A program made the position numbers and the translations under genes. Positions 6,586-63,840 of a stretch of 64,000 nt of DNA are shown one piece after another. The stretch is from NCBI GenBank assembly GCA_022414725.1, contig CM039465.1:21021556-21085555 (forward strand), in the 5' to 3' direction. The DNA comes from Microglena sp. YARC. Lineage: Eukaryota > Chlorophyta > Chlorophyceae > Chlamydomonadales > Chlamydomonadaceae. Under the pieces are notes generated by a model, which searched no databases, had not been told where the DNA came from, and was given only the letters and a program-made list of their open reading frames with translations. Within the stretch, counting starts at the first letter, position 1; every line of letters begins with the position of its first letter.

Positions 6586-6845
6586 GAGCGGGTTCAAATG
6601 AAGTCCTGCCATTTTGCCTTTGTGATCTCGGGCAGACCATCCATATGCAACAACATGTCGCCTTGCTCCAGAAATGTGTACTTTATAGCATGTCCTTTGT
6701 AGCATGTACTGCAGTACATGCTCAACTGTCCACAGCTGCCACCAGGAGGGCCGAGAAGGCTTAAATGAGGTCCTGCCATTTTGCCTTTGTGATCTCCGGC
6801 AGGCCATCCATATACAACATGTTGCCTAGCTCCAGAAATGTGTAC
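6586..6845 (-). repeat. Two downstream copies of the NSE1 terminal exon
   Basis: Copies at about 6753-6843 and 6586-6682 repeat the NSE1 last exon including its stop (6925-7014), with about 90% visible identity. They keep the FLE.G.ML and GLPEITKAKWQD-like text but have lost the GCAG acceptor. They are best read as tandem copies of the transcript end. Confidence 0.8.
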
Positions 6846-6924
6846 TTAATTGCATGTCCTTTGTAGCATGTACTGCAGGGCATGCTCAACTGTCCACAGC
6901 TGCCACCAGGAGGGCCGAGAAGGC

Positions 6925-7014
6925 TTAAATTAGGTCCTGCCATTTTGCCTTTGTTTCCTCTGGCAGTCCATCCATATGCAACAACATGTCACCTAGCTCC
7001 AGAAATGTGCGCAC
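6925..7014 (-). CDS. NSE1: NSE1 exon 7 (residues 196-224 and stop)
   Basis: Acceptor GCTTGTTGCAG. Encodes VRTFLELGDMLLHMDG, then KAKWQDLI and TAA. There is no GT between WQDLI and the stop, so no splice to a RING exon is possible without skipping these residues. Confidence 0.78.
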   Translation of the reverse strand: MRTFLELGDMLLHMDGLPEETKAKWQDLI

Positions 7015-7408: not shown

Positions 7409-7453
<45 letters not shown>

Positions 7454-8357
7454 ACCCCAAATAACAAAAAAACGACTCACCCCAAATAACTAAAAAATTG
7501 ACCCACCCCGAGTATGTAGTAGCCAGGATGATCTTTGACGCTCTTGAGCCAACCATCGTGGATAAATGTACGTAGAGCTTCTTCCTTTGTAGACTTTGCC
7601 ATCTTTTGCGCACCCTGGGTTCATACAGACCATGATGGAGTTACAATTTAAATGTTACAATTTACATGTTTGCGCACCCTCCTGGGTTCAGACAGACCAT
7701 GATAGAGTTACTATTTAAATGTTACAATTTACGTGTGTGCGCACCCGTTGTACGCGGGCAGAGAACGGCCTACCACCTCGACTGGACAAGTTACCATCGC
7801 AGTTGACAACGACCTGCAACGCTCAGGTTGACCGTAGGGGGAATCGAACCCCTGACCCTGCTTCGTTTCAGCGATTTGGTGTACCACTAGACCAATTGTA
7901 TCACTGAAATGGGCTCCTACACATGCAGCTTACAGAAAACATCTATACAGCGTGTAGAAAACAAAACAAGCATTTGCTTTCCAACCCTACACATACTACA
8001 GGTTGGAAAGCACCCTTGTACCCTACACATACTACTGTACTCAGAAGTACCAGGGTACAAGCAGTACACATACTCTCACTCAGAAGGACTTCTATCTCTT
8101 TGTGGCTGAGGAAGACAGTTTTTGTTTTCGTGCGACGCTTTGCAAATTGAGCGACTCGGTGCGACCCCAGTGCGATTAAGTTGATTGTGCAAGGCTACAA
8201 GGATCTGGTGTGTGGTACTGGTAGTGGGCCGGTTTCGGTGCGACCCAAGTGCGACAGTTGATTGTGTAAGGCTACAAGGATCTGGTGCGTGGTACTAGTA
8301 CTGCGCCGGTTTTGGTGCGACCCCAATGCAATGCCCTGCCCCCCATACCCCACTGAG

Positions 8358-8388
<31 letters not shown>

Positions 8389-10218: not shown

Positions 10219-10260
<42 letters not shown>

Positions 10261-13200
10261 GAAACCAAACACACACATGAGTAGCTTGTGGGGGCTGCGT
10301 TCCTGGTCCCCTTATGTCCAAGTACCACCTCCATCACCACATTGCACCACAGCAGAGACTCCTGAAGGCAAGGAATTCCAAGTCTCTACACCCTATTTGA
10401 CTAAATCAGTCAAGCAAGCAGTGTATAAGGATATGCACACACCAGGGCAAACACGAAACCAAACACACACATGAGTAGCTTGCGGGGGCTGCGTTACTGG
10501 CCCCCTACTCCCCTTATGTCCAAGTACCACCTCCATCACCACATTGCACCACAGCAGAGACTCCTGAAGGCAAGGAATTCCAAGTCTCTACACCCTATTT
10601 GACTAAATCAGTCAAGCAAGCAGTGTATAAGGATATGCACACACCAGGGCAAACACGAAACCAAACACACACATGAGTAGCTTGTGGGGGCTGCGTTACT
10701 GGTCCCCTACTCCCCTTATGTCCAAGTACAACCTCCATCACCACATTGCACCACAGCAGAGACTCCTGAAGGCAACGAATCCCAACTATTTTCACCCTTT
10801 TGTATCTCCGTGTTGACGAATGGCTCAATGGTAGAGCTCGTTCAACCAAGAAGTTGCCGGGTTCGAATCCCTACGGATGCGCTTTAGTGTTCGCGGTCGC
10901 TGTCAACCGCCATGGTAGCTGTCCAGGTCAAGTACTAGCCCGTTCCCTACCGCCGTAAGACAGGGTTTCCTTAATACCACACCCCACCAGGCATTATCAT
11001 TACACCCTATTTTACTAAAAATTAAAGTAAGCAGTGTATAAGGATGTGCATACACGTAACCACACACACCTGGGTAGCTTGAGTTGCTTGTGCGGGCTGC
11101 GTTACTGGTCCCCTAATGTCCAAGTACCCCCCACCATCAAAACTCCTGAAGGCTAGGAATTCCAAGTTTCTACACCCTATTTTACTAAATCAGTGAAGCA
11201 AGCAGTGTATGAGGATGTGCAAACACATAACCAAACACACACCTGATTAGCTTGTGTGGGCTGCGTTACTGGTCCCCTAATGTCCAAGTACCACCTAAAC
11301 TCCTGAAAGCTAAGAATCCCAAGTACCTACACCCTATTTTTCTAAAACATTAAAGCAAACACGGAACCAAACACACACCTGAGAAGCTTGAGTAGCTTGA
11401 GTAGCTTGAGTAGCCTGAGCAGCTTGTGTGGGCTGCTTTACTGATCCCCTAATGTCCAAGTACCACCACCATCAAAACCCCTAAAGTCTAGGAATTCCAA
11501 GTATCTACTCCCTATTTTACTAAAATATTAAAGAAAGCAGTGTGCACGGATGTGCAAGTACCACCTAAACTACAATAAACAGGTACCACCTAAATACACA
11601 TAGTATAAGGATGTCCAAGTACCACGTAACTCCTGAAAGCTTAGAATCCCAAGTATCTACACCCTATTTTTCTTAAACATTAAAGCAAACACGGAACTAA
11701 ACACACACCTGAGTAGCTTGAGTAGCTTATGTGGAATGTGTGCGCTGGGTTACTGATCCCCTAATGTCCTAATGTCCAAGTACCACCACCATCACCCCAC
11801 TGCACCACAGCAGAGACTCCTAAAAGGTAGGAATTCCATGTATCTGCACCCTATTCTACTAAATCAGTGAAGCAAGCAGTGTATAAGGATGTGCACACAA
11901 GTAACCAAACACGCACCTGAGTAGCTTGAGTAGCTTGTGTGGGCTGCGTTACAGATCCCCTAATGTCCATGTTGAGTAGCTCCATCTGGCCTATTCGACC
12001 CATCTCCTCACCATCATACGGAGCCATAGCAATGCGCTCCATCTGATGTGCACATTGGGTTGGTTTGGGATTAGTGCACTGTTGTTTTTGTGCGACGCGT
12101 TGCAAATTGAGAAATACGGTGCGACCCCAATGCGACGCGCTGCCCTCCAAACCCCGTGGAGCCCAGGGGGTAGGGGTGGGTGGGGTGGGGGTGGGGCGGG
12201 GGGTCATTTCTGACTAGTTTAGGCAGACAAAAAATGTCACCACCACACGGAGCCATGGCAATGCGCTCTATCTGATTTGCACATTGGGGTTGGGTTGGGA
12301 TCAGTGCACTGTTTCTTTTGTACGACGCGTCACAATTGGGAAATACGGCGTGACCCCATTGCGATGCACTGCCCCCCCAACCCAGGGGGTTGGGTTGGGT
12401 TGGGTTGGGTTGGGTTGGGTTGGGTTGGGTTGGGTTGGGTGGGGGGCATTTTCTGACCAGTTTAGCCGGACAAAAAACATCACCATACCACCATACGCAG
12501 CCATGGCCATGCATTTCATCTGATTTGCGGGTTGGGTAGGGTCAGGGTCGGGGTTGGGGTTGGTAAGGGGGTGGGGCAGGGTTGGGTTAGGTGGGAGTCC
12601 GGTAGGTGAGCTATATATATGTAGCTTATTAGGTTATCTCACCGATGAGGTTAACAACTTGTACTTTTGAATATCATTTTCAGTATAAAAAGTAAATTTC
12701 ATGTTGCTTTTTAAAACTGAGTTGATCCAATTCGACCCAACTCCTCACCACAATAAGAAGCCATGGCTATGCGTTCCATTTGTTTTGCGCTTTGGGTTGG
12801 AGCAGAAGTCAGTGAGGTGAGCTATACACATGTTTGTATGTTACAGTCCAGGGGTACTTGCCCAACCGTGACAGGAAGGGCTGAAAAGAAAAAGCATTGA
12901 TTAACTGAACCCCAAACAATCGTTTAGTTTAAGGGTTCAGTTCATCAGAAAAAGCATGTGTGGGATTCACGCCATCAGAAAAAGCACTGATGAAGTGAAC
13001 CCCACACGTGTAGCTGAGCAGATCATCGGTGAGATGAGCTACAACAGGTGCTAGGCGGCGTCGCAAGCGATGTGGAAAATTGGCGGAGAGTGTTGGCTAT
13101 TGGAACAACATGTGGCAATTGAATGGAGTGCAGCGGACCAAAGCCAGGGTGTACGCGATAGTTGGTTGAGACAGTTGTCTTTGTGTGGTCGGAAGGACAG

Positions 13201-16200
13201 TCAAATGGACAACGGGTAACCCTGGGGGCTCCCGCCCCCCAGGAGGGGGGGCTCCGCCACAAATGTGCCTCAGTAGCTCAGTTGTTCAGGATAAAGGAGC
13301 TTGGTTGTTCAGGTGCTCCCTGGAGCTACAGGGCACCCAGGGTACAGGGCTTTCAGGGTACAGGGTAGAAGGCTCACAGGGTACAGGGTAGAGGGTACAA
13401 GGCTCACTGGGCTCCCAGGGCACAGGGTACAGGGTAGAAGGGTCACAGGGTACAGGGTACAAGGCTCACAGGGTACAGGGTATACAGGGTACAGGGTTCA
13501 CAGGGCACAGGTACAGGGTACAGGGTAGAAGGCTCCCAGGGTACAGGGTAGAGGGTACAAAGCTCACAGGGTACAGGGCTCACAGGGTACAGGGTACAAG
13601 GGTCACAGGGTACAGGGTACAAGGCTCACAGGGTACAGGGTACAGGGTAAACAGGGTACAGGGTAAACAGGGCACAGGTACAGGGTACAGGGCTCACAGG
13701 GCTCCCAGGGCACAGGGTACAGGGCTCCCAGAGCACAGGGTACAGGGTAGAGGGTGCAAGGCTCACAGGGTACAGGGTATACAGGGTACAGGGCTCCCAG
13801 GGCACAGGGTTTACAGGGTATAGGGTAGAAGGCTCACAGGGTACAGGGCTTACAGGGCTCCCAGGGCACAAGGTACAGGGTTTACAGGGTATAGGGTACA
13901 AGGCTCACAGGGTACAGGGTACAAGGCTCACAGGGCTTCCAGGGCACAGGGTATAGGGTACAAGGCTCACAGGGTACAGGGTATACAGGTACAGCTATAC
14001 AGGTACCAAATTTAGAGTTTAGGATTAAGGGTTAATTATTATTGCTTCAGCTATACAGGTACCAGATGTAGGGTTTTGGGTTAGGGGTTAATTATTATTG
14101 CTTCAGCTATACAGGTACCAAGGTTAGAGTTTAGGGTTAAGGGTTTATTATTATTGCTTCAGCTATACAGGTACCAGATGTAGGGTTTAGGGTTTACTAT
14201 TGTTGTTTCAGCTGGACAGGTACCCTGGGGGTGGCCCCAGGAAAAGAAACAAATGGAAATTAGTGCGAGCTGTCACAGGCCACCCACCCAACACCCACCC
14301 AACACACACACACTAGATCATACTGCATCAGTAAGTTCCGATTCCATGCAAAATTGAAAAAATGGAAATTAGTACTTGAACTTCGTTGCACAGCTTCAGC
14401 AAGCAATGTGGCTGCTGAAAATTAGTACGAGCTGCCACAGGACGCGAGATTGAAGGAACCCACCTGTTTGCATGTACCGTACATACTGGAGAATGGCTAC
14501 TATGTTGGGTTTATTAGGTTTCGCAGACCGAGGAAAAGGAATACTTGACATTCAATACACTTGGCGGCGGTGGGCCCTAACCCCTCCGGAGACCTTCTCA
14601 CTGCTAATCCCCGTTTCGATGAATGGCTTAATGGTCGAGCTCCTTGAACGGAGAAGGTGACGGGTTCGAATCCCCACGGGTGCACTTTAGTTATCACAGT
14701 CGCTGTCAACCGCCATGGTAGCTTTGCCCAGGTAAAGTAGCAGCCCGTTCCCTACCGCCGCAAGACGGGGCTCCCTTAGTACTACGCCACAACAGGCGTT
14801 ATCATTACTTTTCTGCTCTCCCCCCCCACTCCCCAGGACCCCCCAAGCAACCTCCATGCACCAGGGCCTAAATAGGCAACTTTACTTTTCTGCCCTCCCC
14901 CCCCACTCCCCAGGACCTCTCCGAGCAACCTCCATGCACCAGGGCCTATATAGGCCAACTTTGCACCAGGGCCAACTTTGCACCAGGGTAGTGCGGTTCA
15001 GAGACAAGTCGACCTTCACGAAACAGAACGAATTTGATGCTGATGAAAGCGTGTGCAAATACGAACGCATACATGCTAATGCCATACGGGCCTAAATAGG
15101 CCAACTCTGCACCAGGGCCAACTTTGCACCAGTGCCTAAATAGGCAACTTTACTTTTTTCTTACCGTTGCTTTGAAGAAATCTCTCTCAGGGATGGTGTA
15201 GCTGGTTCCACACTTGGATGGCTCATCAGCAAGCTGCACATACAAGCAAGCGACATGTGAGGAGGATGCTGTTTGAGCAGCGTGTAATAATGCGGCAAAG
15301 CAAATCAGACTTTGATGCTATACTGTAGCTGCTTCTGAGTCCACACTTGGATGGCTCATCAGCAAGCTGCACACACAAGCAAGCGACATGTGAGGATGAT
15401 GCTGTTTGAGCAGATTGTGAGAATGGTGCACAGCAACTCGGAGTTTGGTGCTATACTGACATACTGTGGCTGGTTCCACACTTGGATGGCTCATCACTCA
15501 TCAGCAAGCTGCACACACAAGCAAGCGACATGTGAGGATGATGCTGTTTGAGCAGATTGTGAGAATGGTGCACAGCAACTCGGAGTTTGGTGCTATACTG
15601 ACATACTGTGGCTGGTTCCACACTAAGATGGCTTGTCAGCATAGTTCACACACAAGCAAGCGACATGTGAGGATGATGCTGTTTGAGCAGATTGTGAGAA
15701 TGGTGCACAGCAACTCGGAGTTTGGTGCTATACTGACATACTGTGGCTGGTTCCACACTTGGATGGCTTGTCAGCATAGTTCACACACAAGCAAGCGACA
15801 TGTGAGGATGATGCTGTTTGAGCAGATTGTGAGAATGGTGCACAGCAACTCGGAGTTTGGTGCTATACTGACATACTGTGGCTGGTTCCACACTTCGATG
15901 GCTTGTCAGCATAGTTCACACACAAGCAAGCGACATGTGAGGATGATGCTGTTTGAGTACCTTATAAGAATGTGGCAGAGCAACTCAGAGTTTAGTGTCT
16001 CTCCTGTGTGGCCGGGTATTACCTGTAATACCTAGGGAAAGGCTAAGTTAGTTAATATCAGTGAATGCATAATATTAGTGGATGTTAGTTGATATTATAC
16101 GGTCGAGCCGTCCGTCCCACCAGAATTTTGAAGTTTTTTTAAACACTCATATTATTGTGTCACTTTAATAACATGATTTAATTTTTCAAACACTAATATT

Positions 16201-19200
16201 AGTTTCCATTCTATAGTAATACCCCAAAATCGATTATCTCCATAGGTGCCTAAATCCGAAAACGCCCTAAGTCAGTACAAGAATGTGATACAGAGCCGTA
16301 CATGGCCCAAACTGCTCAAAATCGAATTCTGTCAGGCTCATATTGTTCGCCAAAATCGATTAGGGAAAAGTGGAATAAAAGGGGGAAGATGATAACATAT
16401 TTCTCAAATTGCATGGGGATTTTTACAGCGTCAAGGCTTCAAGAGTAGCAGAACACATTTATCACGTCCAATAAGCTACAGTGGTACATCCACATGTTTG
16501 AATTTGAATTTGAATTGGCCGGTAAGAATGGTGCAAAGCGACTCAGAGTTTTGTGCAATATTGTAGTTGGATCGGTGGTTGGCCCCAGTGCAAGCAAACG
16601 GGCTGCCCCCCTCAACCTCACGCTCGTAATAAGGCGAACTATTTATTTATTAATTTACATTTAAACAGGCGGTGGTTGGCCCCAGTGCAAGCATAAGGGC
16701 TGCCCCCCTGAACCTTACGCCTCGTAATAAGGCGTCCTATTCATTTGTCTTCTAGACATGGCGCCTGTTTTCACATTTGCAATCCCCCCCCCCCCCCCCC
16801 CCCCTCTACACACACAAACTTACTTAATGACCGGCATATCATATGATGTTGACCAAAGGCGAGCATGATATCATCTGATATCATACAAATTGCATCATTT
16901 GATATTGTTTATGCATGGTAACTTTAGCGTGTATGCACGGCAACGGCAATATGATATCATATGATGACATAATATCATATGATATCATATTGCCTTTCCC
17001 TACTTACCCCACACCACTCCACCCCACACACCCAGCCCCCCACTTACACCCCCATACCACACCACATCACCAACCCAACCAACGCACCCATAGCAAAACC
17101 TGTAGCAAAACAAATTATTAACACCATGCCCCAAGGACCAACGAATTAATGTCTGAGTGTTTGTTTCAATTTGTAACTAAATTTCAATTTGTTTTCCAAT
17201 TTGCATTTCAATTTGTATTTCAATTTGTACTTCAATTTGTATTATTTCAATTTGTTTTTCAAGTTGTGTTTCAATTTGTATTTAAATTTGTATTATTTCA
17301 ATTTGTATTTAAATTTGTATTTCAATTTGTATTTCAAATTGTATTTCAATTTGTATTATTTCTATTTGTTTTTCAAGTTGTATTTCAATTTGTATTATTT
17401 CAATTTGTATTTCAATTTGTTTTCAATTTGTATTTCAATTTGTATTACTTCAATTTGTATTTCAATTTGTATTATTTCAATTTGTACTTCAATTTATATT
17501 TCAATTTGTATTATTACAACTTGTATCTCAATTTGTATTTCAATTTGTATTTCTATTTGTATTTTAATTTGTATTATTTCAATTTGTATTATTTCAATTT
17601 GTATTTCAATTTGTATTATTTCAATTTGTATTATTTCAATTTGTATTATTTCAATTTGTATTATTTCAATTTGTATTTCAATTTGTATTATTTCAATTTG
17701 TATTTAAATTTGTATTATTTCAATTTGTATCTCAATTTGTATTTCAATTTGTATTTCAATTTGTATTTCAATTTATATTATTTCAATTTGTATTATTTCA
17801 ATTTGTATTTCAATGTGTATATCAATTTGTATTATTTCAATTTGTTTTTCAATTTGTATTTCAATTTGTATTATTTCAATTTGTAACTAAATTTCAATTT
17901 GTATTTCAAGTTGTATTTCAAGTTGTATTTCAATTTGTATTATTTCAATTTGTAACTAAATAAATGGTACGTCCTGGTATGAGGCGTGAGGTCGAGGGGG
18001 CCAGCCGGTTTGCTTGCACAGGGGACAACCACCAATTTTCCATTTGTTTCCTAAACAGGATCACATTATTCTCAGAAGATCATTGCTTCACAGTAGCTAC
18101 AGCTCCATACCCACACACACCAACCAACCACCACACCACCCCAAACCCACCAACCACCACCACACCACCACCACACACACACACTACCACCACATCCGCA
18201 CGAACTAACCACCACGACGCACACACCAACACCACACCACACCCACCAACCAATCACCACACCAACACACACCACCACCACACTACCACCACCACACACA
18301 CACTACCACCACACCACTACCACAAACACACACAACCTCACCACCACCACCAACCACCACACACACCACCACCACCACCATAACCCCACCACCACCACCA
18401 CACACTACTACACCACCACCACACAGACTACCACCACACCACCATACACACACCACCACACCAGGGTACTACATGATGCGCGCTTGCACGCTACCGCACA
18501 AGGTTTTGGAGATTCGATTGACGCAAATTTGTGAACCCCCTCTGGGTGCAATGCGCAGATTTCCGTTTTAAGTTGAGTCAAAAGCGCACCCAAAAGGAGG
18601 CAGTTGCGTCAAAAGCGCAACCAGAAATGATAAAATGTAGTGCCCTGCACCACACACACACCACCACACACACACCACCACACAAACCATCACCACACAA
18701 ACCATCACCACACACACACCACCACACACACCACCACCACCACAACTCCACCACACACAGCACTACCACCACCACCACCGCCACCACAACAACCCCACCA
18801 CCACCACCACAACCCCACCACACACAGCACTACCACCACCACCACCACAACAACAACCCCACCACACACACACCACCACCACCACAACCCTGCCACACAC
18901 ACCACGCACCTTGTTGATGAAGCCGATGTACTTCTCCTTGTCCTCCTGGTACAGCAGCACCACACACACTTCAACTACACCACCACACACACACACACCA
19001 CCACCACCACCACCACAACCCCACCACCTCCACACAAACACCAGCACACACACCAGCACACACACCAGCACACACAGCACGTACCTTATTGATGAAGCCA
19101 ATGTACTTCTCCTTGTCCTCCTGATACAGCATCCAAATAGCAGTTGCATAAGTTGTTTTGCAGGATGACAGCCCTCCCACCGCACCCCACCCCACGCTAT

Positions 19201-22200
19201 TGGTGATCGGCCCCAGTGCATGCAAACGGGCTTGCCCCCTCAACCCCACACCTGGCAATAAAGCGTATTATTAATTTATTTATTAGCTGTTTTGTAGCAT
19301 TGTCACAAATCAAGTGGCAAAATAGTGGCAATGGTAAAAGATATTAGTGGCAAATTAGTGACAAAATAGTGGCAAAAAAGTGGCATTGGTGGAAGAAAAA
19401 AGTGGCAAATTAGTAGCAATGGTGAAAGATAATAGTGTCAAATAAGTGGCAAATTAGTGACAAAAAAGTGGAAAAATAGTGGCAAGGGTGAAAGATAATA
19501 GTGGCAAATAAGTGGCAAATTAGTGACAAAAAAGTGGGGAAATAGTGGCAAGGGTGAAAGATAATAGTGGCAAATTAGTGACAAAATAGGGACAAAATAG
19601 TGGCAATAGTGAAAGAGCAGATAGGCTAGTCCTATCAGTTCTACCACCCAGCAGGTGGAAGGGGTGGCAGGAGAGTGCCCCTTCCACCCACACTGCCTCC
19701 CTGCTATCACCTCATGCAAATCTGCCTATTCTGCACCCATTGGTCGGCCCCCTTAGGGGGACAGACCTATGCGATACTGACGCGAAATCGTGCTGTTGGT
19801 GCTGTTTTTTCCCTTTGTGGGTGGAAGGGGTGGCAGGAGAGTGCCCCTTCCACCCACACACGGACACTGCTAATTGGCGGAGCTCCCTCTTCAAGGGGGC
19901 GGGAGCCCCCATGTTAACCCATTTGTCCGTCCGACCGGAAAAAATCTTGAAGCCAGGCACGTCATCCAACGGTCGCGTAACTAACTCGCTTTGATTGGCT
20001 CCATCTTTGCCACCTTTCGTTCCGTTGCCAACACACTCCGCCAATTTTCCGCGTCGCTTGCGACGCTGCATAGGACTTGTTATTTCAGATTTCTGTTGGC
20101 CAGGTTGAGTAGCTACTTGGGCTCCTCAAGCCTGATTTCAGGATAGTTGCGTAGCTATCGCTATGGTTCCGTTGCCAACACACTCTGCTGCATAGGACTT
20201 GTTTCAGGGGTCTTTGGCACCCTTTTCTGCACCCCTACTACACCCATATACATCCAGAATACACCCTAGAAGCAGGGTGGAATGTGGGTTTTTATACATC
20301 CAGAATACACCCTAGAAGCAGGAATTTTTCCGCTATATATAGCGATCCCTGCTTTTGACCCTGTTTTGGCCCGAATCGCCGCTATAAAAAAGGTTTGGCC
20401 CTAAATGCCCCTAAAAAGCTACACAAAGCTATACAAGATAGGCTGTAAGCCCAATAATTAGGGGTCGGCAATATGATATCATATGATATCATGTGATGCC
20501 GGCGGTCTGACTATGTAACTTTGGCCTTGGGCATCATATCATATGATATTAAATCATATGATATGATGCCCATTTTTTTTTCTGATATCATATGATATCA
20601 TACTCGTCTTTGGTCAACATCATATGATTTGCCGTTCCCTACACATAATGGGGTGCAAAAGACCCTTAAAATTTGCAGCGGGTCTGGGGCATACCAGCTG
20701 TCAGTCAAAGCATCATCATACAGCCGCATGGTTTATAGAAACCAAGTCTAAGAGGTGCGTTCGTTAAATTGGAGGGGGGGGGGGGGGGGGGGGGGAGGCT
20801 GGTATGCACAGATTTTGTTTTTTAGTTGTGCAAGGATTTTCACCTCAGGAGGTGGGTCTCCCGACACTAACCAGCGACACCGAGGTTTCAGCTTGAATGG
20901 TGTTGCCACTCACACAAAAGAGTGGGCGCACTTAGGGTCGGTGGGAGATACGGAACCTCGACCAAACAGACATGGTTGTATGAGGTGCCTGCCGCGTGAA
21001 TAGGTAAAAAATGAAAAATGAAACATGCTACGCCTTGCCACGGGGCGTGAAGTTGAAGGAACCTTCCCGCTCGCTCGCACTGGGGAAGGTTGCAGTAGGT
21101 TTTGCTTTTGCAGATTGCTTATGCGCCAGGAACCTACGACTTTATTTTATAAAGGATGGATGCACACGTGGTGGGTGGTGGATGGTGGGTGGTGATGGGT
21201 GGGAGGTGGGTGGGTGGGTGGGTGGGTGGGTGGGTGGGTGTTGGTGGGTGGTGGATGGTGGGTGGTGGATGGTGGGTGGTGGATGGTGGGTGGTGGATGG
21301 TGGGTGGTGATGGGTGGGAGGTGGGTGGGTGTTGGTGGGTGGGTGGATGGTGGGTGGTGATGGGTGGGTGGGTGGGTGGGTGGGTGGGTGTTGGTGGGTG
21401 GTGGATGGTGGGTGGTGATGGGTGGGAGGTGGGTGGGTGTTGGTGGGTGGGTGGATGGTGGGTGGTGATGGTGGGTGGTGATGGGTGGGAGGTGGGTGGG
21501 TGGGTGTTGGTGGGTGGTGGATGGTGGGTGGTGATGGGTGGGAGGTGGGTGGGTGTTGGTGGGTGGGTGGATGGTGGGTGGTGATGGGTGGGAGGTGGGT
21601 GGGTGGGTGGGTGGGTGGGTTGCGGTGGGTGGTGGATGGTGGGTGGTGATGGGTGGGAGGTGGGTGGGTGTTGGTGGGTGGGTGGATGGTGGGTGGTGAT
21701 GGGTGGGAGGTGGGTGGGTGGGCGGGTGGGTGGGTGGGTGGGTGGGTGTTTGTGGGTGGGTGGATGGTGGGTGGTGATGGGTGGGAGGTGGGTGGGTGGG
21801 TGGGTGTTGGTGGGTGGGTGGATGGTGGGTGGTGATGGGTGGGAGGTGGGTGGGTGGGTGGATGGTGGGTGGTGATGGGTGGGAGGTGGGTTGGTGGGTG
21901 GGTGGTTGGGTGGGTGGGTGGGTGTTGGTTGATGGGTGGATGGTGGGTGGTGATGGGTGGGAGGTGGGTGGGTGGGTGGTTGTTGGTGGGTGGGTGGATG
22001 GTGGGTGGTGATGGGTGGGAGGTGGGTGGGTGGGTGTTAGTGGGTGGGTGGATGGTAGGTGGTGATGGGTGGGAGGTGGGTGGGTGGGTGGATGGTGGGT
22101 GGTGATGGGTGGGAGGTGGGTGGGTGGGTGGGTGGGTAGGTGTTGGTGGGTGGGTGGATGGTGGGTGGTGATGGGTGGGAGGTGGGTGGGTGGGTGGGTG

Positions 22201-29200: not shown

Positions 29201-32200
29201 AATAGGCTTAAAGGACTGGCCCGATCTTGAATCGTTAAGATATATGGGATGTGATACTATATATACTACATGAAATATATACATGTGTGTATGTCACAGA
29301 CCTGGGGTTATCAAATAGGCTTAAAGGACTGGCCCGATCTTGAATCGTTAAGATATATGCCACTATGGCAGTACATGTATGTGTACTACAGTCCAGGTTA
29401 ACCACATTGGCAAAACGGGGATTGCCTTCCACTGGAAGTAGTGAAACGTCTAACTGGCTGTATGTTCTGTAGCCCAGGGGCAGCCACGGAGGCAAAAAGG
29501 GGTTCGCAAACCGCTGGGAGCAGCGTTCTGTGAGTGGGTAAGATAGTCAGGGGGTAGCCACCTGAGCCAAATAGAACTGATTGCCTGCCTGCCATCGGAA
29601 CCCATAGCTTTTCTTTTCGACTATGATGAGCAGCTTCAAAGCAGCTCCCTGAGCCAGCCACTGGGCTAAGCCCCAAGATTTCAGCAATTTTGGAAAGATG
29701 ATTCTGTCAGCTACCAGATGCACTGCTTTGAAATAGGATTGGCTGGGAGTAAGCCAGGGAACTAGGGGAGCTGCCTAGAAGCTGCTGCTAGTAGCTGAAA
29801 AGAAAAGCTATGGGTTCATTCACCACCACCACACTCATTACTACCTACACACACTCACGTCCACCAACACGCACAACACCACCACACCACCACCACACAC
29901 ATACGCTGAAACCAGGGTTCCGAATTAGAATTCTGAGTTGGTTTAGCTGTACACTGTCTTGCACTAGCTAAGGGACTAGCCTAATATTTATAGGGACCGG
30001 CATATCAAATGATGCTGGCAGAAGGAGAGTATGAGATCATATGATATCTTACAAATTGCTTCATATGATATTGTATATAGATGGCAACTTTAGCCAAACA
30101 GACTGCCGGCATCATATGGAATCATATGATGACATGATATCATATTATCCATATGGTATCATATTGCCGTTCCCTAAATATTTAGGGTTACCAAGAATGA
30201 TATCGTAGCTATCAGACATGTATATCGTACGATATATCAAGATATCATGCGATATATAGTTTGATATTATACAATATATTGTACAACATCTGACGACAAA
30301 TCGTTTTAGAACCTTGGAACCAGGAAGATATTGTCAACCCTGCTGACATTTATCTCCAGACAGTCATCTACCAATGAATGCTACCAGGGTGGTGGTGGTG
30401 AAGGTGGTGATAGTGGTGGTAAAGGTGGCAACTCTGCTAACATTTATCTCCAGACAGTCATTTACTCATGAATGCTACCAGGGTGGTGGTGGTGAAGGTG
30501 GTGCTAGTGGTGGTGCTGGTGGTAAAGGTGGCAACCCTGCTAATATTTATTTCCAGACAGTCATTTACCCATAAATGCTGTGTGTGCATGCATATGGTGT
30601 GCGTACCAATATCACATGTGCGTCTGTGCGGCCTTGGCAGTTGGCCCCTGTGCAAGCAAACAGGCTGGCCCCCTGAACCTCACGCCTCAAAATAAGGCGC
30701 ACTATTATTTATTTATTTATCCTCAGTGGGCTCTTGGTGGTTGAACCCAGTGAAAGCAAACGGGCTGGCCCCCTCAACCTCATGCCTCGTAACAAGGCGT
30801 ACTACTGATGTATGTTTTTATCTGTACCCTGCAGCGGGTAGGACCACTGCTGGTCTACTCTCACTCAAGCACCTCTTGGGTTGCATCTTTGCATAGGCCT
30901 ATGTATTTGCATCCTGTCTGTTTCTATCCCTTTTTCCTGTCTTCCTGTTTCTGTCCCTTTTTTTCTGTCCCTTTTTTCCTGTCCCTTTTTTTCTGTCCCT
31001 TTTTTTCTGTCCCTTTTTCCTGTCTTCCTGTTTCTGTCCCTTCTTCCTGTTGTTCAATCATCTAAATGTGTGTATCTATCCAGGCTGTTCCTTAAAACCT
31101 GTTGTTCAATCATCTAAATGTATTAAACTGTACAGGCTGTCACTTATAAGCCCCAAACGACGCGCCATCGAATTGTGGGTATCACATCAGACAAGCACTA
31201 CCAGATGATCTTGTTCGACACCCCCGGAATCATCGAGCGAAAGCGCAATAAGCTGGAGGAGCGTATGATGTCGGCTGTGGTGTCGTCTATTCAAGCAGCT
31301 GAGGCGATTATCGCAGTTGTGGATGCTGCTGACCAGCCGGAGGAAGCGCTGGCCATGTTCCAGCCTGGAGACAACTGGACAGGTAGGAGGAAGCTGGTCG
31401 GTGTGTGTGGTGTGTGTGTGTGGTGGTGGTGGTGTGTGTATGTGTGTGTGTGTGTGTGGGGGGGGGGGGGTAGGGTTCATTATCGCCGCAATTATCGCAG
31501 TTGTGGATGCTGTTGACCAGCCGGAGGCAGCGCTGGCCATGTTCCAGCCCAGGGACAACTGGACAGGTAGGAGGAAGCTGGTCGGTCTGTGTGTGCGGGG
31601 TGTGTGTATGTGTGGGTGGGAGGGGTGGGTGTGGAGGGGGGTAGGGTTAGGGTTCATTCTCGCCGCAATAATCTCAGGTGTGGATGCCGCTGACCAGGCG
31701 GAGGAAGCTCTGGCCATGTTCCAGCCCGGGGACAACTGGACAGATAGGAGGAAGCTGGTCGGTCTGTGTGTGCGGGGTGTGTGTGTAGGGGGGGGCGGGG
31801 GGGGGGGGGGGGGGGAGTAGGGTTCATTATCGTCGCAATTGAGGATGCTGCTGACCAGCCAGAGGAAGTGCTGGCCATGTTCCAGCCTGGGGACAACTGT
31901 CCTGGTAGGGAGAAGCTGGTCAGCACTTAGCTGATCAGCACTTCTTTTCCTAAACCACCTGAACCACCTGAACCTAAACCTAAACCACCTTAGCCACTTA
32001 AACCACCTATACCCTAATCCACCTAGACCTAAACTACCTAAACCCTAAACCACCTAAACCCAATTGCTGACCAGCTTCCCACTACCAACTGGACAGGCCC
32101 CCCCATGGCGGTGCTTCTCAACAAGGCGGATCTCCTAGAGGAGGCCCAGATAGCGGAGTTAGAGACGTGGTGAGGATTTGTATTTTATTTATTTGTTTTT

Positions 32201-35200
32201 AATATGATTTATATGTTTTTTTAGCCGCCTCTGGGCTGCTTGCCGTCTTCCAATTCGAAGTCCCTCGGGTGCGACAGGGATTGTTTTTTTCTAATCTGAA
32301 AGTGGGTTTTTTCTAGCTTAATGGTTTTAGGCCCTATCCAGAGACAGCGTTTTTAGGGCTATTTTGGGCCATATATTGGGGTTCTTCATTGTGGCAATTC
32401 AGGCCAAAACGGGGTCAAAAATAGCGATCGCTATATACAATGGGAAATCACGGAAACCAGGCAGCTCAATAAGCGTACTCGGTGAGAAATCCACGCTTTG
32501 AACACCTAGCGTTTTTTCGTACCTCGAGCAGCAGCTTCTATGCAGCTCCCCTGACTGGTTATTCAGCCAAAGCAAATGCACCCCAGTGCATTTGGAAGCT
32601 GACATAATCAGCTGTCCAGAACTGCTGAAATCTTGGGACTTAGCCTAGTTGCTAGCTCTTGGATCTGCCTGGAAGCTGCTGCTAATAGCCAAAAAGAAAA
32701 GCTATGTTTGAACACCTCTGACCTTGACACCTCTGACTTTGACCTTGACACCTCAGACTTTGACCTTGACACCTCTGACTTTGACCTTGACACCTCTGAC
32801 TTTGATACACCTGACCTTGACACCCTTGACCTTGACACTTCTGAATTTGTTGCAGGGGTTCGGTTTTAGTGTTTTTAACCCTAAAACCCTAAGGTTACAA
32901 GGTTTATGTGCATAACAATCATATAACAGAGTATCGGAAGACAGCATGCACTATTTTTCCGTGCGACGCGTCGCAAATTGAGCGATTAGGTGCGACCCCT
33001 GTGTGACACGCTGCCCTCGAACCCCTCGGATTGTGAAGCGCGGAAGGTGGGTAGCCAAATAGGCTTAAGGGACTTTCCCAACCTCGATATCAGGAGAGGC
33101 TAGAAATGACACAAGCGCTGATGATGAACTGGATCTCAATAAAACGTTTTACCGACGGAGAAGCTGAAAGAATCATTGTGTGTATGTAACAGTACAGGGA
33201 TAGCCAAATACCTCAACAGAACGGTTTAGCAGAAGAAGCTGACAGATGCATTGTATGTATGTTACAGTCCATGGGTAGCCAAATATGCTAAAGAAGCTTG
33301 CCAAACCTCGATATTCGGAGGGGCTAGAAAGAACACAAGTGCTGATGGCGAACTGGGTCTAAACAAAACGGTTTACCAACGGAGAAGCTGGCAGAATCAA
33401 TGCATGTATGTTTAAGTCCAGGGGTGGCCAAATAGGCTTGAGGGACTTTCCCAACCTCGATATCCGGAGGAGCTAGAAAAGGCACAAGCGCTGATGATGA
33501 ACTGGGTCCCAACAAAACGGTTTACCAACAGAGAAGCTGACAGAATCAATGCATGTATGTTAACAGTCAAGGGGTAGCCAAATAGGCTAAAGAGGCTTGC
33601 CAAACCTCGATCTCAGGAGGGGCTAGAAAGGACATTAGCGCTGATGATAAACTGGGTCCCAGCAAAACGGTTTACCAACAGAGAAGCTGACAGAATGAAT
33701 GTGTGTATGTTACAGTCCAGGGGTAGCCAAATAGGCTGAAGAGGCTTGCCAAACCTCGATATCAGGAGGGGCTAGAAAAGGCACACATGTGCTGATGATG
33801 AATTGGGCCCCAGCAAAACATGAATTGGGCCCCAGCAAAACACAGAATTGGGCAGAATTGGGCCCCAGCAGAACATGAATTGGGCCCCAGCAAAACATGA
33901 ATTGGGCCCCAGCAGAACATGAATTGGGCCCCAGCAAAACACGTTTTATCGACGTAGAAGCTGACAGAATCATTACTAAACTGTATGTGCTATGTCTAGT
34001 CTACCAGAGAGCCCCACGCTCTATCCCAAGAGCTAAGTGTTCTGACATAAACCCTGCCCCCTCTGCAGGTACAAGGATGTATGCAAAGCCGAGGTCGTTT
34101 TTAGGGGAAGTGCCAAGAACAACGTCGGCGTGGATGAAGTGAAGGCATGGGCTGTGTCTGTACTGCCAGAGGGCCCCACGCTATACCCCAAGAGCATCGT
34201 CAGTGAACAGCCTGAGCGATTCTTTGTGTCAGAGCTGATTAGGGAGAAGATCTTCTTGCTGTACTCCATGGAAGTACCATACTCCACCCAGGTTAGTGTG
34301 CTTTTTTCTTCCCTTTTTTGTAGCGATTTTTCCAGCTCAGAAAATGCTTTTTATAGCCATATAGATTTAGGCCTCCTGCAGGGACAGCGTCCATAGCTTT
34401 TAGGGCCATTGAGGGCCATAGATTTGGTTTCTTTATAGCGGCAATTTGGGTCAAAACGGGGTCAGAAGTAGCGAAAGCTATAAATAACAGAGAACGAATC
34501 TCTGTTTGTTTGCTCCACGCTCTACCCCAAGAGCATTGTCAGTGAGCAGCCAGATCGCTTCTTTGTTTCAGAGCTGATTACCGTACTTGTTAAAGCGAAG
34601 ATCTTCTTGCCATACTCCATGGAAGTACCATACTCCAGCCAGGTGAGTGTGCTTTTTCGCTTTAGCCCCCTCTGGACCCCCCAGGGTCCCGGGGCTGAAG
34701 CCCTACGTTCCCCCCGTGTCACTGTCCGCGGTCTGCTGTCTGTCCGCTGTCTGTCTGTCCGACAGATGTCAAGGCGTTTGAACTATTCAGACCACCTCCA
34801 CACCCAAACATTTTGCTCATAGTCGGAGTGCGCATGACTAGAGTAATCAGCATCGCAGGGGTCAAGATCCTTCGCAAAAGCTGTTCAATGTTTGTGTCAA
34901 CGGAGTGTTGAAAAGGTTGTAGAGGCAATGAGACTGGGGAGGCACTCTAGAAAGAGAAATGCGACGTTACAGCAGAGAGAGAGGCGATCTGCTGTCAGCA
35001 GATCGCCGCTCCTGAGTATAGCGAGAAGGAATGGTGAGCACACTCTGTGGTGAGCAGCAGAGTGTGACGCAGCTTCCTGGAAGGTAACATCCATAACTAG
35101 GCTGGGATGAAAAAACCATGTGTAACTGGTATCTTACTCACTGATTTATGTAAGAAGATTATGAAAGTTAATTATCATAAATCCCCAGCTACATCACTAA

Positions 35201-36792
35201 CTAAGAGGAATGAACCTACTGACGTACACCTGGAAGGAAATAGGTGTATTGAAGTACATCTGCAAGTACATCTGAAAGTACAACTGCAAGTACATCTGAA
35301 TGTACAACTGCGAAATACCCACAATTGGTTTCACCATTTCACTGAAAGTGAAACTGAACTAGAAACTGACTACCAATCTCCTTCGAGACACACGACATGA
35401 GCCGTCACATCCAAGTTCAGGAATGCACGAGCAGCGCTATAGGTGAGCAGAGCACGTTACCATGTAACTACTCCAAGTAGAAGGGTTGAGCATGCAGCTA
35501 CTTCTTCACTACAGATGGTGCACATCTCGCATAAAGTAGGTGACACGAGCTCTAGTGCCTCCAGTGGGGTGCGTCCAGCTGCTGCAAATACATGCAAGCA
35601 CCAATGCAACGCAAAACCAGACATGTCAACGGAGTGTTGAAAAGGTTGTAGAGGCAATGAGTCTGGGGAGGCACTCTAGAAAGAGAAATGCGACGTTACA
35701 GTAGAGAGAGCGTAGGTTTAAATACACTCTATTAAGGGTATAGGAAGATGTAAACCCTGAGTATAGCGGGGGGGGATGGTGAGCACACTCTTTGGTACAG
35801 CAGAGTGTGACGCAGCTTCCTGGAAGGTACCGGAACACCTAGAAGGTTCCCGTACGCCCCGCATACTCCGGAACTATTCGTTCAATTGTCAGCGGGTGAA
35901 CTACAGGCACACGGATGCTATATCGGCATCTACAAAACTCGTTTAGTTCTCTCCCTTCTTAAGCACGTATCATATGCCATTGCGAATGTACCGAAGCAGA
36001 CTTAGCTTGGCTTAGTAGAAAGAGAAATGCGACGTTACAGCAGAGAGAGAGGCGATCTGCTGGCAGTTTGTAGCTCTATTCCGCTACGAGTAGCTACTTT
36101 CTCCTCTACTTTCGAAACTCCATGCTGGTGACTGCTAAAGCGATTTTCCGTGTCGCTTGCGACACGCTCTTAGAACTTGTCCTCTCCTCTTTTGCCCCAC
36201 GCTCTACCCCAAGAGTATAGTCAGTGAACACCCGGAGCGATTCTCCCATGTCAGGTTGAGATCATTGTAACGGGTTTCAACTCTGTTTCAGATCATTGTT
36301 GCAGGTTTCAACTCGACCATGTATTCGCCCATTTCAGGTTGAGATCATTGAGTTCAAGGAGAGACGCAACCAGAAGGATTACATCTCTGCTCAGATCTTG
36401 GTCGAGAAGGAAAGCCAGGTAAGAGTGTAGTGCCAATGCAATCCTGAAGCCAGGCAAGAGTGGAGTGCCTATGTAATCCTGAAGCCAGGCAAGAGTGTAG
36501 TGCCAAAAAATCCTGAAGCCAGGTAAGAGTTTAGTGCCTATGTAATCCTGAAGCCAGGCAAGAGTGTAGTGCCAATGTAATCCTGAAGCCAGGCAAGAGT
36601 GTAGTGCCTATGTAAGCCTGAAGCCAGGCAAGAGTGTAGTGCCAATATAATCCTGAAGCCAGGCAAGAGTGTAGTGCCTATGTAAGCCTGAAGCCAGGCA
36701 AGAGTGTAGTGCCAATATAATCCTGAAGCCAGGCAAGAGGTTAGTAATCCTGAAGTCAGGTAAGAGTGGTGTGGTGGTGCTGGTGTGTGTGT

Positions 36793-36825
<33 letters not shown>

Positions 36826-39800: not shown

Positions 39801-40360
39801 TGGGCGGGAAGTCGGTTAAGTCGGTTACGCGATGACTCCACCACAACCACGACCATGATTTCTTTATATATATATAAAAATATATAGTATATATATATAT
39901 ATATATACTATGATGAAAATCAGGTAGATGATGACCACTACCCCATCGCATAAAAATAAATAGTTTGCCTTATCACGAGGTGTGAGGTTGAGGGGGGCAA
40001 CCCGTTTGCTTGCACTGGGGCCAACCACCCACCTAACCCATCCCATCTGAACCCATCCCAACCCATCCCAACCTATCCCAACCCATCCCAATCCATCCCA
40101 ACCCAAACCATCCCAACCCATCCCAACCCAAACCATCCGAAACCATCCCAAGCCAACCCATCCCATATATGTAGGTCGGTATCATTGTTGGAAAGGGCGG
40201 CGCTGCCTTGAAGCGACTGGGGCGAGACTCTCGAGAGGATATCGAGCAGTTCCTGGAACGCTCTGTGTACCTGGAGCTGTCGGTGAAGGTGGCGGCTGAC
40301 TGGAGGGAGAAGAAAGAGTCTCTGGAGCAGTTTGGATTCTACAGCCCCTCCTACACCTGA
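25635..40360 (+). CDS. ERA: Era-like GTPase, chloroplast type
   Basis: Seven exons (25635-26202, 28960-29024, 31136-31382, 32097-32169, 34069-34291, 36338-36418, 40175-40360) join to 1443 nt, 480 aa. Residues 1-37 look like a transit peptide (basic, ending RPRASA). Residues 63-109 are an RG-rich tract unusual for Era, followed by an acidic linker. The G domain starts at GHKSGYVAV: G1 GKPNAGKS at 192-199, G2 region PQTTRH, G3 DTPG at 239-242, G4 NKAD at 302-305, G5 SAK at 332-334. The KH domain has GKGG at 425-428 and an FGFY-containing end. Era binds the 3' end of small-subunit rRNA and helps ribosome assembly, here presumably in plastids. Introns make up about 90% of the locus. Confidence 0.93.
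26750..27210. repeat. Two tandem arrays in Era intron 1
   Basis: 26750-27105: about six units of 60-65 bp (CACATGCTGCCTGTACGCCACCGAAAGAATAAGTA). 27105-27205: three units of about 36 bp (GCAGCAACGTGTGTTTTTCTCGGGTTCTC). Confidence 0.85.
27830..28510. repeat. 114-bp tandem array in Era intron 1
   Basis: About six units with ATGAGGCATCTCAACAGACATCTGAATGGGTGGTG ... CGATATCGCGCAGAAACGCTGG. The starts near 27877, 27991, 28105 and 28219 are exactly 114 bp apart. As 114 is 38 codons, frames of about 150 codons stay open on both strands; neither is a gene. Confidence 0.88.
28840..28918 (-). repeat. 80-bp hairpin repeat, inverted
   Basis: ACGCCTTATTACGAGGCGTGAGGTTGAGG ... TTTGCTTGCACCAGGGCCAACCACC. 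It ends about 40 bp before the acceptor of Era exon 2. Confidence 0.8.
28960..29024 (+). CDS. ERA: Era exon 2 (G1/Walker A)
   Basis: Acceptor TTTTTCTTGTTGCAG, donor TTTCA|GTGAGT. Encodes VIGKPNAGKST and NAIVGQKLS. Confidence 0.93.
29183..29350. repeat. AGGGGTTATCAAATAGGCTTAAAGG repeat, two tandem units
   Basis: Two units of about 107 bp in Era intron 2. The family consensus is TGTATGTTACAGTCCAGGGG, TAGCCAAATAGGCTTAAGGG, ACTTGCCCAACCTCGATATC. Other copies: 7222-7285, 10145-10200 and 12843-12900 (all inverted), 33048-33950, 40838-40900, 43128-43215, 46530-46640, 62893-62960. Confidence 0.72.
29983..30184. mobile_element. hAT-like MITE, family 1, perfect 8-bp duplication
   Basis: Element 29991-30176 (186 bp): TAGGGACCGGCATATCAAAT ... 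ATATTGCCGTTCCCTA, flanked on both sides by AATATTTA (29983-29990, 30177-30184). This is the cleanest copy for defining the element ends. Confidence 0.88.
30370..30570. repeat. Three tandem units with GGTGGTGGTGAAGGTGG
   Basis: About 95-bp units: ACATTTATCTCCAGACAGTCAT, then ATGAATGCTACCAGGGTGG and a GGT/GGTA run. They lie in Era intron 2. Confidence 0.8.
30637..30812 (+). repeat. Two 80-bp hairpin repeats in Era intron 2
   Basis: Copies at 30637-30722 (tail ATTATTTATTTATTTA) and 30735-30812 (no tail). Both carry CCCCCTCAACCTCA-type text. Confidence 0.78.
31136..31382 (+). CDS. ERA: Era exon 3 (G2, G3)
   Basis: Acceptor AACTGTACAG, donor GGACAG|GTAGGA. Encodes AVTYKPQTTRHR, MILFDTPGIIE and VVDAADQPEEAL, ending NWT plus one base. 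An acceptor-edge copy (TCCAGGCTGTTCCTTA) lies 57 bp upstream. Confidence 0.93.
31440..32096 (+). repeat. Tandem copies of the Era exon 3 end and its donor
   Basis: Three copies at about 31480-31582, 31655-31755 and 31830-31925 repeat the last ~85 bp of exon 3 plus the first ~60 bp of intron 3. The first keeps GGACAG|GTAGGAGG; the second has GACAGATAGGAGG (GT lost); the third CCTGGTAGGGAG. A shorter remnant (GCTGACCAGCTTCC..CCAACTGGACAG) ends at the exon 4 acceptor. Poly-G runs separate units. Confidence 0.85.
32097..32169 (+). CDS. ERA: Era exon 4 (G4, NKAD)
   Basis: Acceptor CAACTGGACAG, donor ACGTG|GTGAGG. Encodes PPMAVLLNKADLLEEAQ and ends within the Trp codon completed by exon 5. Confidence 0.9.
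32705..32850. repeat. Minisatellite (ACACCTCTGACTTTGACCTTG)n
   Basis: Seven or eight 21-bp units, open in several frames because 21 is divisible by three. Confidence 0.88.
33048..33950. repeat. Array of GGGTAGCCAAATAGGCT repeats in Era intron 4
   Basis: About five units of 120-170 bp, each with a GATATC(A/C)GGAGGGGCTAG block, GATGATGAACTGGGTCCCA and CAAAACGGTTTACCAAC. It ends with five short ATGAATTGGGCCCCAGCAAAAC units at 33795-33945. Confidence 0.82.
33998..34034 (+). repeat. ERA: Fragment of Era exon 5 just upstream of exon 5
   Basis: CCAGAGAGCCCCACGCTCTATCC resembles the internal exon 5 sequence CCAGAGGGCCCCACGCTATACC and lies about 40 bp before the real acceptor. Confidence 0.7.
34069..34291 (+). 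CDS. ERA: Era exon 5 (G5 and linker to KH)
   Basis: Acceptor CCCCCTCTGCAG, donor CACCCAG|GTTAGT. Encodes the SAK motif, LPEGPTLYPKSIVSEQPERF and EVPYSTQ, all typical of Era. Confidence 0.93.
34500..34645 (+). repeat. ERA: Downstream partial copy of Era exon 5 with donor
   Basis: Repeats the exon 5 second half: TLYPKSIVSEQPDRF, FVSELI, then an insertion, then KIFLPYSMEVPYSSQ and CAG|GTGAGT. It is open in frame but lacks an acceptor and the SAK half. A third, shorter fragment is at about 36195-36245. Confidence 0.8.
34895..35830. mobile_element. LTR-like direct repeats flanking a short insert
   Basis: Two related repeats of about 190-205 bp start TGTCAACGGAGTGTTGAAAAGG at 34895 and 35624 and end GCAGCTTCCTGGAAGGTA at about 35086 and 35830. 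The 530-bp interior has no pol-like frame. The layout resembles a terminal-repeat retrotransposon in miniature, but no primer-binding site or target duplication was found. A third fragment lies at 36014-36065. Confidence 0.45.
36338..36418 (+). CDS. ERA: Era exon 6 (start of KH domain)
   Basis: Acceptor CGCCCATTTCAG, donor AGCCAG|GTAAGA. Encodes VEIIEFKERRNQKDYISAQI and LVEKESQ, phase 0 at both ends. Confidence 0.9.
36411..36760 (+). repeat. Minisatellite built on the Era exon 6 donor
   Basis: About nine units of about 35 bp (GCAAGAGTGTAGTGCCAATGTAATCCTGAAGCCAG) start directly at the real junction GAAAGCCAG|GTAAGAGTG. Each unit rebuilds an exon-like GAAGCCAG followed by GCAAGAG or GTAAGAG. 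A long poly-G run follows at 36796-36825. Confidence 0.85.
37106..39907. repeat. 1.3-1.5 kb tandem duplication in Era intron 6
   Basis: Unit 1 (37106-38599) and unit 2 (38600-39907) both start ACTAGTACGGTAGCC, contain poly-C tracts, the CTGTGGGCTTTGCCATAGCTG block, and end with a GGCGGGAAGTCGGTTAAGTCGG stretch and a TA-rich run. Identity looks above 90% across the last kilobase. I see no supported exon in either. Confidence 0.82.
39944..40032 (-). repeat. 80-bp hairpin repeat, inverted
   Basis: AAATAAATAGTTTGCCTTATCACGAGG ... TTTGCTTGCACTGGGGCCAACCACC, followed by a (CCCATCCCAAC)n run up to Era exon 7. Confidence 0.8.
40175..40360 (+). CDS. ERA: Era exon 7 (KH domain, stop)
   Basis: Acceptor CATATATGTAG. 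Encodes VGIIVGKGGAALKRLG ... LELSVKV.ADWR, the RNA-binding GxxG loop and final helix, ending YSPSYT and TGA at 40358-40360. Confidence 0.92.
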   Translation, partial: VGIIVGKGGAALKRLGRDSREDIEQFLERSVYLELSVKVAADWREKKESLEQFGFYSPSYT

Positions 40361-40470
40361 TCTGGGGGTATCTGATCTGGGGGTGCCTGATCTGAGGGTA
40401 CCTGATCTAAGGGTACCTGATCTGAGGGTGCCTGATCTGGGAGTACCTGATCTGGGGGTACCTGATATAT
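40345..40470 (+). repeat. 15-bp repeats starting at the Era stop codon
   Basis: CTGATCTGGGGGTAC-type units, about seven, begin with the TGA of the Era stop (CACCTGATCTGGGGG). They would form the start of the 3' UTR. Confidence 0.82.
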
Positions 40471-43745: not shown

Positions 43746-44120
43746 GCTATGGGGTTCCATACAAAACAAAACTAGTTGGAACCTGGTCATACAGATAGCC
43801 ATTATATTCTTGCGCACACCGCACATGGTAGATAGAGACGTGAAACAGACAGTTGTAATCACCTGGATGTTTTCACCGGTGCAACTTGTTCATCTCACAT
43901 TTCTCCAAGGCCAACACTGACCATTATATAACCTAGTTGACTACATGTACTAAAGGCAATGACACGTTTAAAATCCGCTTGAAAGAACCCTCATAACAGC
44001 CATATTCGCATATTCAGCAATAAAGAATAAGGCAAAGCCTAAACTTGAATGAGCTCACCATTGAATTTGACGTCAATACCACATCCTTCTTTGTAGGCCG
44101 TAGCAAGCCCTGCAGAGCTG

Positions 44121-49317: not shown

Positions 49318-63840
<14,523 letters not shown>

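Follow-up and report, generated by a model that had tools for sequence, protein, structure and literature searches.

Diverged tandem copies of exon edges, together with the adjoining splice sites, are found in the introns of a green alga at many exon-intron junctions, and these arrays are a real and widespread case, in a new lineage, of a known phenomenon, viz. the "mirages" of amphioxus genes. In the 64-kb stretch of nuclear DNA analysed here (the window; C4:21021556-21085555 in a genome of 568 Mb and 2390 contigs), copies of this kind span the splice site at 16 of the 41 junctions, and there are 47 of them at an alignment score of at least 40. What is observed directly are the copies, the side on which they lie, a rate of copying that is close to that of the intron background, and their decay. 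The reading which we favour, with a probability of about 0.75, is that a general process of local tandem duplication in introns yields the junction copies without there being a hot spot at the junctions.

The window contains three gene models based on tblastn matches and splice sites, which together have 20 introns (42,376 bp) and 41 junctions. The models for Era (7 exons, 25635-40360, plus strand, 480 aa) and NSE1 (7 exons, 23367-6925, minus strand, 236 aa) are closed by a stop codon, and that for SRP72 covers the first 9 exons (49318-63840, plus strand, 387 aa) and has an open end. The best homologs of Era include proteins from Dunaliella tertiolecta (54%), Chlorella (43-45%) and Myrmecia (45%), and identities of up to 60% are seen among unnamed environmental and transcriptome proteins. 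The sole Pfam match of the NSE1 model is PF07574 (179 residues, E 3e-28), a RING-like domain was not found in it, and a search of a collection of genome contigs with NSE1 found no relative. In a predicted EukProt gene model for the NSE1 locus (P0121), the acceptors of exons 4, 5 and 7 and the donors of exons 4 and 5 are the exon-attached ones; it has the same 3' end as our model, but exons 3 and 6 are missing from it and its exon 2 is different. In Pfam, the SRP72 model has matches to several TPR families, SRP_TPR_like being barely over the cut-off; among its relatives are a protein of Gonium pectorale described as an SRP subunit and one of Auxenochlorella named SRP72. The mean intron in the window is about 2.1 kb, and both the mean introns of Limnomonas (720-823 bp) and the median introns of core-Reinhardtinia (198-343 bp) are shorter, according to the portions of the published accounts consulted. 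A junction-spanning copy was defined by an alignment score of at least 40 for a query of ±120 bp around the splice site; in the background test, a segment of ±15 bp was counted as copied at an identity of at least 75%.

Table 1. Exons, junction copies and related arrays in the window (positions are those of the 64-kb stretch).
Feature	Positions	Strand	Basis
NSE1 exon 7, 3' part with stop codon, 164-bp unit, two downstream copies, without donor	6511..7009	-	alignment
NSE1 exon 6 acceptor, 67-bp unit, one upstream copy	7605..7746	-	alignment
NSE1 exon 5 donor edge, six downstream copies, two shifted at splice site	10259..11972	-	alignment
NSE1 exon 5	11917..12042	-	gene model
NSE1 exon 5 acceptor edge, upstream copies (offsets -229, -477, -737)	12008..12790	-	alignment
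NSE1 exon 4	15165..15233	-	gene model
NSE1 exon 4 5' edge and acceptor, 135-bp unit, five upstream copies	15197..15997	-	alignment
NSE1 exon 3 (19085-19120) and whole-exon copy 175 bp downstream, both splice sites	18910..19120	-	alignment
Era exon 3 (GTPase switch region)	31136..31382	+	gene model; tblastn 85% to P0001
Era exon 3 3' edge and donor, three downstream copies (offsets 184, 361, 522)	31304..31921	+	alignment
Era intron 3 acceptor end repeating exon 3 3' edge	32065..32096	+	11-nt run flush with splice site, second 11-mer upstream
Era exon 5	34069..34291	+	gene model
Era exon 5 3' part and donor, downstream copy (offset 351, 12-bp insert)	34512..34657	+	alignment
Era exon 6 acceptor and upstream copy (offset -83)	36230..36350	+	alignment
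Era exon 6	36338..36418	+	gene model
Era exon 6 3' edge and donor, 35-bp unit, eight downstream copies, GC for GT in seven	36412..36768	+	alignment
Era exon 7, terminal, KH domain, TGA end	40175..40360	+	gene model, Pfam
15-bp array with Era stop codon, without donor	40355..40466	+	alignment
SRP72 exon 4 5' edge and acceptor, four upstream copies	53298..54344	+	alignment
SRP72 exon 4	54302..54436	+	gene model
SRP72 exon 4 3' edge and donor, three downstream copies	54401..54999	+	alignment
SRP72 exon 5 3' edge and donor, four downstream copies	55703..56057	+	alignment
SRP72 exon 7 (60382-60515), two upstream acceptor copies, one downstream donor copy	60160..60655	+	alignment
SRP72 exon 8 3' edge and donor, 143-bp unit, three downstream copies and one partial	62204..62870	+	alignment

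The copied junctions, which comprise 7 acceptors and 9 donors, are those of NSE1 exons 3 (both sides), 4 (acceptor), 5 (both) and 6 (acceptor), Era exons 3 (donor), 5 (donor) and 6 (both), and SRP72 exons 4 (both), 5 (donor), 7 (both) and 8 (donor); at SRP72 exons 1, 2, 3, 6 and 9 no junction-spanning copy is seen at a score of 40. An earlier note on this DNA had reported copies at NSE1 exons 3-7, at Era exons 3, 5, 6 and 7 and at SRP72 exons 3, 4, 5, 7 and 8. The copies themselves are borne out at the 16 junctions, but the other 25 of the 41 are without a spanning copy. Further, the two terminal exons in that list, viz. exon 7 of NSE1 and of Era, carry a stop codon and not a donor (the NSE1 model ends in TAA within the exon 7 array, at 6925-7014 on the minus strand), and for SRP72 the exons 4, 5, 7 and 8 were recovered but exon 3 was not, where the numbering may be shifted.

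All 30 donor-side copies in the window lie downstream of the exon and 16 of the 17 acceptor-side copies lie upstream, the sole acceptor copy on the downstream side being part of the whole-exon copy of NSE1 exon 3. The polarity, which was said to be always the same, is therefore kept except for this copy and for internal fragments of Era exon 5, which are also copied and one of which lies upstream. However, the side of the copies is forced, because whichever copy is continuous with the exon body is, by definition, the exon, and the earlier explanation that the polarity follows from duplications spanning a junction is correct in this geometric sense. The similarity of the copies is far beyond chance (75-97.5% identity over 28-120 bp at a score of at least 40), and in 3 of 10 arrays the detached copies are more alike mutually than they are to the exon copy; homogenisation of the detached copies does not appear to be general. 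The splice dinucleotide is kept in 19 of the 30 donor copies and in 12 of the 17 acceptor copies, neighbouring dinucleotides being 76% intact; the 11 losses among the donor copies include two shifted alignments and the seven identical GC of the Era exon 6 array. This loss of splice dinucleotides reads as neutral decay. Selection against decoy splice sites was also considered, but there was no clear departure from the neighbouring dinucleotides.

When low-complexity sequence is dropped, 14 of 39 window junctions are copied, versus 13.4 (copies within 600 bp) or 15.8 (within 3 kb) at positions chosen randomly in the same introns. Without this filter the count is 14 of 41 versus 17.2 and 19.5 for the two distances, and for copies within 3 kb the junctions are copied less than random positions (P(random <= observed) = 0.038). 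An alignment-based version of the comparison gave 13-15 of 39 junctions versus 13.5-17.1 expected over sixteen settings, in which 35-50% of the complex intron positions were locally copied. Comparison with random intronic positions was the check proposed in the earlier note for its suggestion of junction hot spots, and no hot spot emerges from it; its other suggestion, that such arrays are tolerated only at junctions, does not agree with the copying of a third to a half of the complex intron sequence. In blocks of 1 kb, the mean copied fraction of complex sequence is 0.51 for the introns (41 blocks) versus 0.17 for three flanks (17 blocks; Mann-Whitney p = 1.6e-4), where the flanks are three stretches not assigned to these genes and include at least one coding array. 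The claim that the arrays explain the long introns is supported in so far as tandem copying adds length, but NSE1 intron 2, with 3.8 kb, is only 13% copied.

Family searches of the same genome listed 27 GTPase, 32 Adaptin_N and 64 Cpn60_TCP1 matches. For GTPase and Adaptin_N, 47 of the 59 matches were entered (2 in the window, 2 with internal stops and 8 others being left out), and 43 of these were used after three with internal stops and one duplicate exon had been dropped; for Cpn60, 18 of the 30 loci obtained were used, the others being dropped on account of internal stops (eight) or very long open frames (four). For the junctions outside the window, a matrix built on the 20 introns of the window predicted 75 in the first set and 30 in the second (66 and 28 in complex sequence); some of the exon cores may lack introns or belong to contaminant contigs. 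Detached copies are present for 32 of the 43 exons in the GTPase/Adaptin_N set and for 10 of the 18 in the Cpn60 set, and the alignment test detected spanning copies at 49 of the 105 predicted junctions (39 of 75 in the first set, 10 of 30 in the second), the same test giving 15 of 40 in the window and thus 64 of 145 in total. Among the 180 copies in these other genes, 154 touch one exon edge (5 whole-exon and 21 internal copies were not counted for side) and 152 of them lie on the expected side, with 68 of 70 copies of 5' edges upstream and 84 of 84 copies of 3' edges downstream. These numbers of copied junctions and the sides of the edge copies show that the copying of exon edges extends beyond the window.

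In the comparison with background, 36 of 66 predicted junctions are copied versus 32.3 expected (P = 0.14) in the GTPase/Adaptin_N set and 9 of 28 versus 6.5 (P = 0.12) in the Cpn60 set; pooled, these become 45 of 94 versus 38.8, a marginal excess (P = 0.049). In neither set is there a peak at the junction relative to positions 75-150 bp into the intron (0.531 versus 0.526, and 0.308 versus 0.338), and the junctions are therefore at most slightly preferred. At 600-1300 bp from the predicted junctions the copied fraction is 0.45 and 0.19 in the two sets, and the enrichment of closely spaced copies near exons is weaker in the other genes than in the window. In view of the slight junction excess and the fall-off far from exons, a preference for exon neighbourhoods is possible. 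The nearest copy is found at a median distance of 149 bp (range 57-584) for the 64 copied junctions and of 150.5 bp (quartiles 102 and 197) for 1958 copied complex positions, the latter being a position-weighted figure that favours long units. The spacings in the window and the other loci are concentrated at about 100-200 bp, with a density that is highest at 150-170 bp and falls sharply beyond 220 bp; to relate a spacing of about 150 bp to the similar length of a nucleosome would be speculation. At one of the other loci (L013; C1:67386777 and 67387283) an Adaptin exon is seen twice, about 500 bp apart, with both exons open and alike in protein.

The divergence among the copies is structured by codons, which we regard as the most interesting point of this work. 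Among the detached copies in the window, 49 of 89 polymorphic columns are at third codon positions versus 31.3 expected, where the expectation was matched for exon and base in 5000 permutations; none of these was as high, and with any exon left out P is at most 0.0005. For the edge-touching window copies the count is 35 of 70 versus 24.6 (P = 0.002, or 0.04 without SRP72 exon 4), and for the exon half of the junction-spanning window copies only, it is 35 of 81, which is not significant (p = 0.15). Excesses are seen elsewhere too, with 155 of 354 versus 122.4 in the GTPase/Adaptin_N set, a count which none of 5000 permutations reached, and a weak one in the Cpn60 set, with 66 of 165 versus 57.1 (P = 0.044, or 0.055 for edge copies only). 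The intron halves of the window copies have no codon period. The differences between exon and copy in the window are synonymous in 101 cases and not so in 93, versus a neutral 61 and 133, although part of this synonymous richness arises because the exon itself is constrained. We interpret the differences among the copies by budding or conversion, in which the copies may have come at different times from the living exon, or from different alleles. A corresponding age gradient is weak: in 28 arrays the nearest copy is the closer one, in 17 it is the farthest copy, and 3 arrays are tied (p = 0.037 by the Wilcoxon test and 0.14 by the sign test), and in the window alone 6 arrays are negative and 4 positive. 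If budding from the selected exon-attached copy (or from alleles) occurred repeatedly, then old copies would keep earlier synonymous states, and the copies could form a layered fossil record of the exon in which some were recruited as splice sites. To this proposal we give somewhat less than an even chance; candidates for such recruitment are the acceptor of Era intron 3 and the duplicate of NSE1 exon 3. If it is true, part of the intron sequence would consist of dated earlier states of the adjoining exons, and introns would steadily supply new splice sites.

The favoured reading supposes that the introns of this alga duplicate locally in tandem, often and commonly with units of about 100-200 bp. 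If a duplicated block spans an exon-intron junction, then the copy joined to the exon body would stay the exon and the rest would become intronic mirages, upstream at acceptors and downstream at donors. The spliceosome would mainly use the exon-attached sites, and selection would remove the duplications which disrupt coding, so that mainly junction-spanning or intronic ones persist. Further copies may be generated continually from the living exon when unequal exchange or conversion takes in the exon-attached unit. However, if splice junctions were true hot spots of minisatellite birth, e.g. through R-loops or spliceosome-linked breaks, this could account for the marginal excess in the other genes, for the denser close copies near junctions in the window (for copies within 600 bp, 0.47 of complex positions at 60-240 bp versus 0.22 beyond 960 bp), and for the commoner occurrence of tandem repeats near intron-exon junctions that is stated in part of a survey of C. 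reinhardtii and V. carteri (PMC3887541). Against this, the window junctions are copied about as often as random intron positions and their rate (14 of 39) is not above that of their own neighbourhood, and the other genes have no junction peak. Further, the exon portion carried by the window copies, the whole-exon copy aside, is scattered from 7 to 119 bp, and it is thus also incorrect to interpret the arrays as being seeded exactly at junctions. The interpretation of junctions as hot spots is therefore unlikely and has to be tempered, as general intronic tandem duplication suffices.

Slightly less probable still is that the detached copies serve as alternative or additional exons and hence have a coding constraint of their own. 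The third-position excess among differences private to one copy (44 of 83) is in its favour, stop changes are somewhat below neutral (3 versus 6.0, 20 versus 27.1 and 9 versus 10.0), and both the copy of NSE1 exon 3 with its two splice sites and the copy of Era exon 5 with its 12-bp insert keep sites and frame. However, the splice dinucleotides are gone in 11 of 30 donor and 5 of 17 acceptor copies, stop changes do occur, and only 6 of 223 copies (1 of 43 in the window and 5 of 180 in the other genes) touch both exon edges. As tandem repeats are hard to assemble, collapsed or mis-joined reads could also have produced false tandem copies, but the copies differ mutually by some 3-21%, the unit lengths differ, and several scaffolds have the same pattern, so that an assembly artefact is very improbable.

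In the case of Era intron 3, the acceptor seems to be a recruited copy of the upstream exon edge. The end of this intron is identical to the end of exon 3 over an 11-nt run flush with the splice site, the maximum in 380 cross pairs of other exon and intron ends being 7, and a second 11-mer follows upstream in the same order; the gapped score of 40.2 is above all of 2000 shuffles (maximum 35), and the plain local score of 22 is near the 99th percentile of the cross pairs (21.2) and below their maximum (26). This resembles intron gain by tandem duplication, in that the exon end is repeated at the intron end. However, the start of the intron and the start of exon 4 share a 1-nt run only, with no repeat, and therefore the intron does not follow the symmetric AGGT model of intron gain. 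That model was also considered for all introns and set aside, since Era intron 3 is the only conspicuous one among the 20, the 7-nt run of Era intron 1 being equal to the cross-pair maximum. Tandem duplication across an exon-intron boundary can supply splice sites according to the relevant portions of reports on Drosophila (PMC2891723) and on potato RdRp (PMC4974935), where an intron was gained by a duplication crossing an intron-exon boundary. In Era intron 6 (37442-39907, plus strand) a block of 1.17 kb is duplicated with 92% identity and a spacing of 1.3 kb.

The earlier note knew of no description of this pattern, but the mirages of amphioxus are one. As given in the portions of the two reports consulted, they are minisatellite-like tandem duplications of exon-intron boundaries, with units of 10-160 bp, in Adh3 and the globin genes BflGb6 and BflGb9 (PMC3087553); they occur also in TnC, with imperfect repeats in PGBD5 (PMC3902484). 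In amphioxus as in the alga, both 5' and 3' edges are duplicated and AG/GT is present in many but not all copies, and the algal arrays share three features of mirages, viz. boundary-spanning units, both boundary types, and AG/GT in many copies. The amphioxus cases, as reported there, concern single chordate genes with RT-PCR and haplotype length differences, whereas the algal case comprises 64 of 145 junctions in the sequence of one genome assembly. In C. reinhardtii and V. carteri the density of tandem repeats is highest in introns and greater toward the intron ends; the portion of that survey consulted deals with units of 1-50 bp and describes no exon-edge copies (PMC3887541). Our literature searches found no report of boundary minisatellites in green algae, and in the literature searched they are described for single amphioxus genes. 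What is new is their extent in an alga, the candidate acceptor of Era intron 3, and the codon-structured divergence among intronic copies. With arrays at about one third to one half of the examined junctions, the alga offers many natural experiments on how the spliceosome selects a site in the presence of almost identical decoys, and a system in which the gain, loss or shift of splice sites in introns by tandem duplication can be followed.

Some other repeats were observed in the window. Between Era and SRP72 there is a coding minisatellite, an open frame of 488 aa (44097-45560, plus strand) with about six and a half in-frame tandem units of 111 bp (37 aa), in which 44676-45443 matches DUF6832 above the cut-off and FAST_1 just below it. 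A short dispersed element, which reads like GCGTGAGGTTGAGGGGGCCAGC, was seen by eye in both orientations in introns and flanks (16571-16746, 19199-19284, 28850-28916, 30640-30700 and 39970-40030). Between SRP72 exons 8 and 9, a degenerate copy of exon 5 with a donor-side array (63127-63392, plus strand) was likewise seen by eye, about 7.5 kb from its source exon.
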